In this document: piece after piece, positions 12,617-23,188 of the stretch
How the letters are laid out: the number at the start of each line of letters is the position of its first letter
Position numbering within the stretch: position 1 is the stretch's first letter
Assembly: GCA_013153845.1 (NCBI GenBank)
Contig: JAADDS010000029.1
Location: 1 to 36,143 of the forward strand
Length of the DNA: 36,143 nt
Direction of reading: 5' to 3'
Source: Methanococci archaeon
Lineage (GTDB): Archaea; AGJL01; Methanococci; Methanococcales; Methanocaldococcaceae
Translations under genes and position numbers: made by a program
Notes under the pieces: model-generated
The model's input: the letters and a program-made list of their open reading frames with translations, nothing else
Database searches by the model: none
Told to the model about the DNA's origin: nothing

Positions 12617-12675
12617 TGGCGATGATGAAAAGAGGGTTAGCTGATATTGTGATGATACTTACCCGATCTGAGCCA
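12617..12675 (+). ncRNA. C/D box guide sRNA
   Basis: All parts of an archaeal C/D sRNA occur in order over 59 bases: terminal stem TGGC (12617-12620) pairing with GCCA (12672-12675); box C ATGATGA (12622-12628); box D' CTGA (12641-12644); box C' GTGATGA (12649-12655); box D CTGA (12668-12671). The two guide segments are AAAGAGGGTTAG before D' and TACTTACCCGAT before D, each 12 nt, as expected. By the N+5 rule they would direct 2'-O-methylation at the nucleotides pairing with G12636 and C12663. The gene sits in the 181-bp spacer between the stress protein and zinc protein genes. Targets were not determined. Confidence 0.9.
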
Positions 12676-19982: not shown

Positions 19983-20037
19983 ATCTGCCTCTTAAAATTT
20001 ATTTGGGAATAACTATGATAAAAGAACTATTTAGAAA
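19983..20037 (+). repeat. Upstream copy of the ehaN start region
   Basis: This 55-bp stretch repeats at 20091-20147, which carries the functional ehaN start. The last 32 bases, covering the ATG and first seven codons, are identical. Differences cluster before the ATG: this copy has TTTGGGAA where the downstream copy has GCTGGAGGAA, so only the downstream copy has a strong RBS. The two copies are 108-110 bp apart and enclose the hairpin insert. Confidence 0.92.
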
Positions 20038-20110
20038 CCATAGGGCTCCGCCCTATTGGTATACCCGAAATATCTGCTTCGTTGCAGAAGATCTGCTTCT
20101 TAAAATTTAG
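20015..20110 (+). pseudogene. 5' fragment of ehaN read into the insert (31 codons)
   Basis: The upstream copy of the ehaN start (MIKELFR) stays open through the hairpin insert, giving HRAPPYWYTRN and then a hydrophobic end, and stops at TAG 20108-20110, just before the RBS of intact ehaN. Its RBS is weak. It is either a dead fragment left by the insertion or an upstream reading frame that affects ehaN translation. The spacing of stop and RBS would allow re-initiation. Confidence 0.55.
20038..20092 (+). mobile_element. Hairpin insert A, between duplicated ehaN starts
   Basis: This is the unique segment between the two ehaN start copies. Its core, 20037-20065, is ACCATAGG-GCTCCGC-CCTATTGGTATACC, a hairpin with stem TAGGGC/GCCCTA, outer pairs CCA/TGG and one bulged T; it ends in the palindrome GGTATACC. 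A second possible hairpin (TCTGC/GCAGA) follows near 20074. The same core recurs before the polyferredoxin gene at 21866. There is no transposase, so it would be a non-autonomous palindromic element if mobile. A regulatory hairpin is the alternative. Confidence 0.65.
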
Positions 20111-20124
20111 CTGGAGGAATAACT

Positions 20125-20583
20125 ATGATAAAAGAACTATTTAGAAAAAGATCGATCCACGTTTGTGTTGTCAATACCGGAGGTTGCAATGGATGCGATA
20201 TTGAAATCGTTTCCTGTTTATCTCCGAGATATGATATTGAGCAGTATGGAATATATGTCCACAACAATCCAAGAGAAGCGGATGTTTTACTAATAACTGG
20301 GCCAGTTACTTTACAATGGGCTGAGCGATTGAAAGAAATTTATGAAAAGACCCCAGAACCGAAAGTTGTGGTTGCAGTAGGAGCATGTGCTCTGAGTGGA
20401 GGAATATTTAAAGAAGGGCACGTAATTGGAGGAGTCCATAAAGTTATTCCCGTTGATGCCAAGATTCCAGGATGTCCTCCAAGACCCTCCGAAATAATAG
20501 AAACGATATTAAAAGTTGCTCCTAAGGCAATAGCAATGAGAGAAAAACTCATAAAAGAAAAAATGGAGAAAAATGAGGTTTAA
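20125..20583 (+). CDS. ehaN: Energy-converting [NiFe]-hydrogenase A small subunit EhaN
   Basis: 152 residues; NuoB-like small subunit. The proximal [4Fe-4S] ligands are Cys21/Cys24 (GGCNGCDIE), Cys88 (GACALSGG) and Cys117 (PGCPPRP). It passes electrons between the NiFe centre of EhaO and the ferredoxin-type subunits. The start is the second of two duplicated ATGs and has the better RBS (CTGGAGGA, seven bases upstream). The region before it was rearranged by the hairpin insertion, but the coding sequence is complete and of normal length. Confidence 0.93.
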
Positions 20584-20665
20584 TATTTAATAACATTATA
20601 TAATGCAATACTAATCATTGTGATAATTAATGAAAGAAAAATAAACAACATAAAAGCGTGAAAAC

Positions 20666-21796
20666 ATGTCCACAGTTCCAATTGGGCCAATTCATCCTGT
20701 CTTAAAAGAACCGTTAAGAATAAAACTCGTCTTAGATGGGGAAAAACCCGTCGATGCAGAAATTGAGATGGGTTATGTTCATAGAGGAATAGAAAAAATC
20801 ATGGAAGGAAAACACTGCCATAAGGGAATTCACTTAGCCGAAAGAGTTTGTGGAATTTGCTCATACATACACACAATGACCTTTGCGGAATGTATAGAGC
20901 ATATTTCAAAGATAGAGATTCCAGATAAAGCAAGGTATTTAAGAGTTATAACTTGCGAATTGGAGAGGATACATAGTCATTTAATTGCTTCTGCGGTCTA
21001 TAATTTATCTATCGAACATGAAACATTGGCAATGTGGCTTTTAAATGTTAGAGAGATAGTTATGGACTTAATGGAGATGATCTCAGGGAATAGGATAAAT
21101 ATGAGTTATAATGTAATTGGAGGAGTTCGAAGAGATATAAATAGAGAGATGATGGATGAAATATACAAAAAACTTGATGAATTTGAGGAGGAAATAAAAA
21201 ATATCATTGAAGTTTTCGAGACAGGGCCTTTAATTGCTTTAAGAAGTAAGGATATTGGTATTTTGCCTTATCACGAGGTTATGAGGACAAGAGCAGTAGG
21301 GCCTGTTTGTAGGGCATCAGGACTACCAGAAAGTGATTGGCGACTGAGACATGCAACCTATCAAGAACTCGACTTTAAACCTGTTTGGAGAACAGAGGGA
21401 GATAACTTTGCGAGAATGATGGTTAGGCATGAGGAGGTCTTAGAGAGTGTAAGATTGATCAGAAAAGCGTTAGAGTATTATGAAGAATGTTCTGGGGATA
21501 TTAGGGTAAAGGCAGAGATAAAAGGAGGAAAGGGAGTTTGGAAAAACGAGGCACATAGAGGAGAGGTTACTTACAAGATGGAAATTACAGATGGAGGAAT
21601 AATAAAGCGAATAATGATTAGGACTCCAACAGTTATGAATTTAGAAGCATACAAATACATGTTAAAAACTTGTCCGACAGTTGCTGATGCTGTTTCTACT
21701 TACACAAGTATAGATCCTTGCATATCTTGCACTGAGAGGAGTATATACATAGTTAAAGATGGAAAAGAGATTCCAGTAGGAGTAAAACATCCATAA
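20666..21796 (+). CDS. ehaO: Energy-converting [NiFe]-hydrogenase A large (catalytic) subunit EhaO
   Basis: 376 residues, related to NuoD and group 4 [NiFe]-hydrogenases. Both nickel-binding motifs are intact: RVCGIC (Cys62/Cys65) and DPCISC (Cys352/Cys355), showing it is a true hydrogenase rather than a Nuo-like relative. The C-terminus extends 21 residues past the last Cys, without the classical maturation cleavage site, as in other group 4 enzymes. It splits or forms H2, coupled to ferredoxin reduction by the ion gradient. The upstream 82 bp are A+T-rich with a weak RBS (GTGA). Confidence 0.95.
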
Positions 21797-21823
21797 AGAG
21801 GATTACTAATTTAATTATTGTAA

Positions 21824-21863
21824 TTAGGTGGTTGTTATGGCATCTTCATTATGGTATCTCTAT
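21824..21863 (+). repeat. Upstream copy of the first polyferredoxin start region
   Basis: This 40-bp stretch is identical to 21979-22018, which holds the RBS (AGGTGG), ATG and first nine codons of the polyferredoxin gene. The copies are 155 bp apart and enclose hairpin insert B. Perfect identity suggests a recent event or gene conversion. Confidence 0.95.
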
Positions 21864-21872
21864 AGACCATAG
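21837..21872 (+). pseudogene. 5' fragment of the polyferredoxin gene (11 codons)
   Basis: The upstream copy keeps a full RBS and ATG and would make MASSLWYLYRP before a TAG that lies in the ACCATAGG core of the insert. It is a truncated start left by the insertion, or a short leader peptide gene whose stop codon is in the hairpin. Confidence 0.6.
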
Positions 21873-21978
21873 GAGGAGGCCTCCTATTGGTATACCACAC
21901 GTCCATTAAGTTGCCTCTTCCAGAGACAATTAATGTCCAAACTCTATATATTATGTTAAAAAATAGGCGTATCGAGAT
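21864..21978 (+). mobile_element. Hairpin insert B, between duplicated polyferredoxin starts
   Basis: A 115-bp segment without coding capacity. Its core, 21866-21896, is ACCATAGG-AGGAGGCCT-CCTATTGGTATACC: the outer stem matches insert A, but the apical pairs (AGG/CCT) differ and remain complementary. A second imperfect hairpin follows, CATTAA-TTG-CTCT pairing with AGAG-CAA-TTAATG around 21904-21933. Like insert A it sits at the very start of a hydrogenase-operon gene and ends in GAT before the second gene copy. No transposase is encoded. Confidence 0.65.
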
Positions 21979-21991
21979 TTAGGTGGTTGTT

Positions 21992-23188
21992 ATGGCATCT
22001 TCATTATGGTATCTCTATGAATTCGCAAGGAGGAAATGGATTAAAAGATTTATTAATGCGAAATCAGATAAAAGTTCTTATATCCCTCCCGAGAGGTATA
22101 GAAAAGTCCCACCTATTGTAAAATACCCTGAGAGGTGTATTTCTTGTGAAGGATGTAAGGAGAGTTGCCCTGCATTTGCGGTAGAGATGATTTACAGTGA
22201 GGAATTTCAAAAAAACATTCCGTTAATAGATGAAGGTTCATGTATTGCCTGTGCCAACTGTGTAGAGATGTGTCCAACCGGAGTTTTGGAAATAGATAAA
22301 CATAGGATAGAAACAGAAGGATTATTCTTTGATAAACCAAAATATAATAACCTATTAATTGATGATGAGGTGTGTGTCCACTGCGGAAACTGTGAAAGGG
22401 CTTGCCCAATAAACGTAATCGAGCGGAAAGAGGGAAGATATGTAATAAATATGTCTCAATGTATTTCTTGTAAGGAGTGTATCAATGCCTGTCCAATAGA
22501 GGATGCGATCATAGTTGTTGATGAGAAAACATTAAAGGAGAAAATAGAAAAAGCATTCGAAATTAAAACTAAAAAGATCATGGGAAAATTGGAAGTTAAA
22601 GAAGTTATAAAAGAAGTTCCCCATATAGTTGATAGTATATGCTTAACTTGTGGATTGTGTAAGGATGTTTGCGTTGGAGAAATTGATCTAAATAAAAAAG
22701 TTATTGTTAACTGTGTAAAATGTGGGTTTTGTATAGATGTCTGTCCAACAACTGCCATAAGGACTCATAAAGAGATCGTTCCAAAGAGGAAGGATATATG
22801 CTACATGGTTGATGAGGATATGTGTATTGGATGTAGAATCTGTCAGAAGGTCTGTGGTTCTGGTGCTATAAAGATCAGCAAAGAGACAAAACTTCCATAC
22901 ATTATTCCAGATCTCTGTGTTAGGGGAGGGGCATGTGCAAGAGAGTGTCCTGTTGGGGCTATAAAAATTGTTAAACCAGAAGAAGCCGAAAAAGCTGTTA
23001 AAGTTAGAATAATTGAAGATAAAATCATTGAAACTATTGAGAAAGATCTAATCTCATTCACAAAGAAATACGGAAAAGTTAAAGAGGAAATAGAAAAATT
23101 ATCGATTAAAAAGTTAAAAGAAGAGTTAAGAAAAAAGGTCTACGAGGAAAATAAAAGAATAATGAAAAAGAAGAGGGAGTTGCAATGA
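21992..23188 (+). CDS. ehaP: Polyferredoxin subunit of the Eha complex
   Basis: 398 residues from the ATG at 21992, with AGGTGG upstream (the downstream copy of the duplicated start). An in-frame GTG at 21983 lies in the RBS. Seven complete CxxCxxCxxxC[P] motifs occur (CISCEGC, CIACANC, CVHCGNC, CISCKEC, CLTCGLC, CVKCGFC, CIGCRIC), plus an eighth with three cysteines, CVRGGACARECP. The C-terminus is a Lys/Glu-rich helix. It is expected to wire electrons from EhaN towards soluble ferredoxin partners. The ehaP name rests on position. The stop overlaps the next start. Confidence 0.88.
   Translation: MASSLWYLYEFARRKWIKRFINAKSDKSSYIPPERYRKVPPIVKYPERCISCEGCKESCPAFAVEMIYSEEFQKNIPLIDEGSCIACANCVEMCPTGVLEIDKHRIETEGLFFDKPKYNNLLIDDEVCVHCGNCERACPINVIERKEGRYVINMSQCISCKECINACPIEDAIIVVDEKTLKEKIEKAFEIKTKKIMGKLEVKEVIKEVPHIVDSICLTCGLCKDVCVGEIDLNKKVIVNCVKCGFCIDVCPTTAIRTHKEIVPKRKDICYMVDEDMCIGCRICQKVCGSGAIKISKETKLPYIIPDLCVRGGACARECPVGAIKIVKPEEAEKAVKVRIIEDKIIETIEKDLISFTKKYGKVKEEIEKLSIKKLKEELRKKVYEENKRIMKKKRELQ

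Follow-up and report, generated by a model that had tools for sequence, protein, structure and literature searches.

Palindromic repetitive DNA elements of Methanocaldococcus jannaschii were reportedly described by Suyama, Lathe and Bork in 2005 (FEBS Lett 579:5281) and divided into the groups MJRE1-3. Other small elements invite comparison, among them ordinary MITEs, which have short target duplications. The accessible text of PMC2229807 presents the MITEs of bacteria and archaea as short, non-autonomous and palindromic, with many copies and with direct repeats at the target, and the M. jannaschii elements of 2005 are cited in that text as well as in the accessible text of PMC2996958, where the Rickettsia palindromic elements are described as in-frame insertions in proteins. 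For two Methanocaldococcus species, 1,190 and 1,349 palindromic sequences have been predicted, and no family such as the one treated here is apparent in the available portion of that source (PMC12306157). Within the open literature, a range that did not take in the M. jannaschii paper of 2005, we found no description of target duplications at these elements.

The window analyzed here, that is, the whole stretch of 36,143 nucleotides, carries an operon with Pfam matches to Oxidored_q6, DUF1959, the 49 kDa subunit and polyferredoxins, which from its gene make-up we take to be that of the Eha energy-converting hydrogenase. An earlier note, made from the sequence alone, had pointed out two cores in this operon with common outer arms and differing self-complementary apices; the sequence at 20038-20065 and 21867-21896 bears this out, and the base A stands directly before both cores, in line with the ACCATAGG given there. 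A point absent from that note is that first-codon sequence is present on both sides of each hairpin, as exact duplicates (20006-20037 = 20116-20147; 21824-21863 = 21979-22018). The features of the two sites are listed below, where the genomes G004 and G013 are presumably those of M. jannaschii and M. vulcanius, respectively.

20006-20037, + strand: site 1, left copy (X1), which spans the ribosome-binding region, the ATG at 20015 and the opening codons of the gene for the hydrogenase small subunit; identical to 20116-20147
20038-20065, + strand: site 1, hairpin 1, CCATAGGGCTCCGCCCTATTGGTATACC; covariance model R1, 46.5 bits, E 2.5e-14
20066-20112, + strand: site 1, second hairpin of type D in degenerate form, with a tail rich in A and T; assigned by eye from comparison with the type D hairpin that L317 (G004) has at this site
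20116-20147, + strand: site 1, right copy (X2), where the small subunit gene begins (ATG 20125); exact repeat; ORF 20125-20583, Pfam Oxidored_q6
21824-21863, + strand: site 2, left copy (X1), ATG 21837, followed by AGA (21864-21866); identical to 21979-22018
21867-21896, + strand: site 2, hairpin 1, CCATAGGAGGAGGCCTCCTATTGGTATACC; model R1, 45.4 bits, E 6e-14
21897-21938, + strand: site 2, second hairpin, type G by pattern class (GTCCATTAAGTT...AATTAATGTCC), then tail up to 21978; the G013 element is nearly identical
21979-22018, + strand: site 2, right copy (X2), where the polyferredoxin gene begins (ATG 21992); exact repeat; Pfam Fer4 repeats at 22007-23185

A looser match extends the left copy of site 1 to 55 nt at 91% (19983-20037), and part of this stretch resembles the tail of an element. 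The true gene starts are likely the downstream ATGs, 20125 and 21992, while the list of open reading frames offers GTG 21983 as an alternative start for the gene at site 2. The earlier statement that the cores lie at the first codons of genes is too simple: the cores follow a duplicate of these codons and the likely real starts are found downstream. Both genes begin intact downstream of the hairpins, and because of this an in-frame element of the Rickettsia type was rejected for both window copies. The analogy with those elements drawn in the earlier note is therefore weak: it is confined to dispersed palindromes near or in genes, whereas both window copies lie between target duplicates, with the genes whole and nothing added in frame to the proteins. 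The left duplicates retain the start signal and can be read by eye as short upstream frames through the hairpin (20015-20110 and 21837-21872). No Rfam family matches at the gathering score at the cores of the window or of L001 and L004-L009; elsewhere in the window, positions 12618-12673 match the C/D box small RNA sR3 at that score.

That the cores are not due to chance, as the earlier note had argued, is seen from the pattern CCTATTGGTATACC, which with at most one mismatch occurs nine times in the window's own genome as against zero for the reversed-pattern control. The hairpin-1 pattern CCTATTGGKATACC, searched with K at its variable base and without mismatches allowed, is found in 11 of the 14 genomes of the genus, up to 33 times in one genome, and the reversed control gave 0 in all 14. 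Of the 36 genomes of the order 12 carry it, the only one outside the genus being G034 with a single copy, and the reversed pattern matched once each in two of the 36. The dispersed, structured family that the note had envisaged emerged when a covariance model of hairpin 1, built from 40 sequences, was applied with matches counted at E <= 0.01: at least 432 matches were found in 11 Methanocaldococcus genomes, one in G012 and none in G003 and G008. Because 150 candidates were scored per genome the counts are lower bounds, namely at least 10 in G000, 60 in G001, 46 in G002, 63 in G004, 53 in G005, 50 in G006, 27 in G007, 32 in G009, 42 in G010, 38 in G011 and 11 in G013. The 22 other Methanococcales genomes yielded one strong match, again in G034 (E 9e-11), and outside the genus there are eight weak ones in five genomes (E 2.8e-4 to 0.009), of which the one inspected, L436, looks unlike the element. 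The G034 copy (L434, 1501-1528) lies at the same DUF1959/Oxidored_q6 gene junction as site 1 of the window, in the opposite direction and with a 33-nt repeat of its own (31/33 identical, score 56, controls 16 and 15); it is a separate insertion, made there or in a donor. A 76-base element of type A+D (L317) was compared with 72,556 plasmid and 50,697 phage records, among which kin of the window genome are possibly absent, and matched none of them. Among the matches listed in a scan of genome and viral contigs with a 14-base pattern most are in unrelated organisms and chance-like; of these matches the analysis drew on L059, from Methanocaldococcus sp. SG1, and L099, from a Methanocaldococcaceae MAG. 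Both window hairpins are copies of a small mobile element of which many Methanocaldococcus genomes carry tens.

With at least 63 hairpin-1 matches, G004 contains dispersed palindromic repeats, and the family is likely that of the M. jannaschii elements of 2005, with which it shares the genus, the palindromic make-up and the dispersal; the accessible text of the two later papers citing them gives no sequence. The word "undescribed" in the earlier note was probably mistaken, given that the M. jannaschii elements have been in print since 2005. What differs here is that copies are traced throughout the genus and set against empty sites.

The unit consists of hairpin 1 (CCATAGG...CCTATTGGKATACC), a second hairpin that comes in several alternative types, and a short tail rich in A and T; simple copies measure approximately 65-90 nt, and those inspected as read appear non-coding by eye. 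Among 21 distinct 30-base hairpins 98.6% of the cells are paired, and 15 cells are changed on both sides versus 7.0 in shuffles that retain relatedness, none of 500 reaching 15. These changes fall in only two of the ten pairs, a number that shuffles equal (mean 1.9; 472/500 reach 2); seven pairs are invariant, and the number of pair types is not above that of the shuffles. For 12 type D hairpins both-side changes occur in six of 12 pairs, which one in 500 shuffles reaches, relatedness again being retained; 81% of their cells pair, two inner pairs fail in nine of the 12 rows, and pair types are not clearly above shuffles (155/500). Compensatory apical changes, as anticipated in the earlier note, are found across the family in these 21 hairpin-1 and 12 type D sequences. 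Mismatches are unevenly distributed on the drawn strand, where C.T exceeds G.A by 37 to 4 (G.A on the other strand) and A.C exceeds G.T by 27 to 13 (G.T on the other strand; p 0.04, relatedness uncorrected), and an earlier test with a different walk rule gave A.C to G.T ratios of 16:4, 5:3 and 3:0 in three hairpin types. Loops of the forms C-GNA-G and C-GNNA-G, which are stable, occur among 61 hairpin-1 inner sequences on the other strand only in 19, on the drawn strand only in two, on both in none and on neither in 40; the corresponding numbers for 27 type D hairpins are 10, 1, 6 and 10. This bias in mismatches and loops suggests that the folded strand is the one reading GGTATACCAATAGG...CCTATGG.

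The mobility suspected in the earlier note is visible in orthologous sites that are occupied in some genomes and empty in others, examined at three chosen sites and one further site. Neither orthologous copies nor those in arrays count as independent. Nine of the 13 genomes covering site 1 are empty by eye and have a single copy of the target (G002, G003, G005-G010 and G012; G011 is uncovered), G004 has an element with a perfect 35-nt duplication, and G001 is occupied too. In G013, whose large subunit is 100% identical to that of the window, site 1 has no element and a tail-like remnant, which looks like element loss. Site 2 is empty by eye with a single target copy in 11 of 14 genomes (G001-G006 and G008-G012) and occupied in G000, G013 and G007, the last with a different second hairpin. 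Of the insertions at the L326 site, that of G004 has a duplication of 39 nt (95% identity), and G001 carries another one in the same gene end, displaced by about 15 nt; by eye, nine of the 13 covered genomes (G011 being uncovered) show no element there, G000 has an apparent decayed remnant, and in G007 a similar left copy precedes a decayed core, behind which more than 200 nt of other sequence follow. One copy common to G004 and G001 has no visible duplication, nor is a duplication visible for another copy at a site derived from L282. Since element-free orthologous sites have one copy of the target, many copies of the element are best regarded as insertions with unusually long target duplications. 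The duplicates of site 2 are identical within G000 and within G013, and both differ between the two genomes by the same two bases, so that they have changed in concert since the insertion; for this one genome pair gene conversion would be the simplest reading.

The generality of the duplication was assessed on 161 unique cores from the fetched loci, a subset of the model matches, from which seven cores without a recognized left arm and five with short flanks were removed. The flank on the CCATAG side recurs within 170 nt to the right (score >=30) in 73 of the 149 remaining copies, as compared with one of 149 when the left flank is shifted by 320 nt and 14 of 149 when the right window is taken 450 nt off, a figure probably inflated by CRISPR and tandem arrays. 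The other 76 copies have no repeat at this threshold, for which decay, nesting or another route could account. A previous form of the test, in which 60 of 153 copies scored above the best of about 20 controls (right flanks of other elements), is superseded by the present one. In 66 of the 73 cases at most 6 nt separate the repeat from CCATAG (gap 0 in 50, gap 2-6 in 16), and seven do not abut it. Among 29 better-preserved cases (identity >= 0.88, score >= 48, length measured from the core) 11 sit in CRISPR repeats, where the length is set by the repeat (32-42 nt, and 80 in a tandem array), and the duplication in the other 18 spans 29-55 nt, although divergence and the uncertain position of the element's right end blur the boundaries; the 55 nt belong to site 1 of the window, with an exact part of 32 nt, and 43 nt (L003) to site 2, with an exact part of 40 nt. 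The eight bases before CCATAG consist of a T-rich (58/69/51/41%) and then an A-rich stretch (42/43/59/54%) in 134 non-redundant copies, CRISPR repeats included, and the preference is weaker in 44 non-CRISPR duplicated sites (T 50/64/50/52, A 34/45/48/34%).

For 46 sites the position relative to genes was classified with ORFs of at least 70 amino acids, after removal of CRISPR-like rows (some were missed), similar rows and those below 75% identity, some of the rows kept being orthologous. A gene enters the duplicated stretch from the right only at 28 of these sites, from the left only at four, from both at six and from neither at eight, including two tRNA genes recognized by eye. At L325, L330 and L343 the duplicated stretch starts at GTTCGAATCC or GTTCAAATCC and includes an apparent tRNA 3' end. 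Integrases also insert at the 3' ends of tRNA genes. With the end of the gene, tRNA or CRISPR repeat supplied anew by the duplicate, the host sequence remains functional, and such insertions would survive for this reason. Elements at or beside CRISPR-type repeats, with more repeats after them, are seen in L016, L026, L033, L034, L334, L337, L344, L359, L362-L364 and L368, loci of G005, G006 and G009, and are probably few events copied among arrays.

We consider it probable, at roughly 70%, that the two window hairpins belong to a mobile non-coding element, probably the M. jannaschii elements of 2005, which acquires a target stretch of about 30-50 nt on both sides through staggered insertion by a trans-acting enzyme. 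A staggered-cut insertion is in keeping with the precise element end, the junction preference and the great and apparently variable length of the duplications. In this scheme a trans-acting enzyme would open the two strands at points tens of bases from each other, the hairpin DNA, itself or as a copy, would be joined by its CCATAG end after the T-rich and then A-rich stretch, and fill-in would yield the long duplication; recombination between the duplicates may later remove the element, as apparently at site 1 of G013, or build tandem arrays. Three enzyme families were sought in the 14 genomes of the genus. RVT_1 (PF00078), the reverse transcriptase expected in a carrier of non-LTR retroelements, matched in none, while the same search as a control matched in three of 14 well-known genomes. 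The Y1 transposase (PF01797) was found in two, G007 and, with internal stops, G013, and it was not found in G001, G002 and G004-G006, carriers of 46-63 copies. Neither family is therefore supported as a common mobilizer. Cas1 occurs in 12 of the 14, namely in all 11 copy-rich genomes and in G003, itself without copies.

A cis-regulatory RNA hairpin of the hydrogenase operon, serving mRNA processing or translation, would account for the covarying stems, for a location between genes of one operon and for the short upstream reading frames that X1 and the hairpin form by eye. Most covered relatives are, however, empty at both sites, and copies are also present where other genes start or end, behind tRNAs and within CRISPR arrays, so we regard this explanation as very unlikely. 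An error of repair or replication, either template switching or the joining of two breaks across chromosome copies in a polyploid cell with hairpin DNA as filler, fits the variable duplication length and the tandem arrays, and of the three families sought the reverse transcriptase is absent and the Y1 transposase rare. Yet the insert ends precisely, with gap 0 to CCATAG in 50 of 73 cases, and together with the junction preference this points to an enzyme that recognizes the element end; we rate such an error as unlikely, but together with Cas1-Cas2 as one of two live rivals.

Target-primed reverse transcription of an RNA copy, in the manner of non-LTR elements, would give one fixed end with variable duplications, and indeed the CCATAG end is fixed, the opposite ends are varied, and the structural signs favor the strand GGTATACCAATAGG...CCTATGG; the lack of RVT_1 matches in all 14 genomes, against a control search that succeeded in three of 14, makes it highly improbable. 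The proposal that Cas1-Cas2 inserts the hairpin DNA like a spacer, at CRISPR repeats and off target, with the staggered cut producing the duplication, draws on several copies that directly follow the end of a CRISPR repeat (...TTTTAAAC|CCATAG), on the weaker T-rich then A-rich end at non-CRISPR junctions too, and on the presence of Cas1 in 11 of 11 copy-rich genomes and in one of the three others (G003). This association is, however, confounded by phylogeny, G003 has Cas1 and zero copies, and G008 is only 85% complete. A ruler integrase should moreover give a near-constant length, whereas lengths apparently vary from 29 to 55 nt (18 non-CRISPR copies, boundaries blurred), the usual CRISPR spacer is shorter than the element, and the copies in CRISPR repeats seem to have arisen by duplication from a small number of events. 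On balance we judge Cas1-Cas2 to be a rather unlikely agent, and the CRISPR-repeat junction makes its role directly testable.

Turning back to the staggered insertion in trans, we would advance it as a transposition-like process not known in prokaryotes only as a tentative and rather doubtful suggestion. In such a process a pair of folded non-coding hairpins, of DNA or RNA, would be inserted by a machine acting in trans and possibly belonging to the host, with cuts in the two target strands at a variable distance of 30-50 bases or more from each other; the CRISPR adaptation complex is one possibility. If this is true, insertions inside gene ends heal themselves. If the duplications of 30-50 nt are right, they constitute an insertion signature matched by no element class that was tested here, and they explain why dozens of insertions at the edges of genes can be borne by so compact a genome. 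The element resembles MITEs in being short, non-autonomous and palindromic, with many copies and with direct repeats at the target (73/149), and differs from them in that it has no known parent transposon and that its duplications are tens of bases long; no end-to-end inverted repeat was seen by eye in the inspected copies, and the parent search covered Y1_Tnp, RVT_1 and Cas1. REP/RAYT systems are similar in their hairpins, their location mostly at gene edges and their strand asymmetry, and unlike in that the Y1 transposase occurs in only two of the 14 genomes of the carrier genus and in that the present elements have long flanking duplications. The duplicates may also be of use as natural reporters of gene conversion and excision. 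Two further observations concern single loci: L433 (G011) has, by eye, an insertion in a gene end that is accompanied by a direct repeat of some 70 nt, and in L010 and L018 a different element with inverted ends TAATTATCAAAG...CTTTGATAATTGG apparently lies inside a type G second hairpin.
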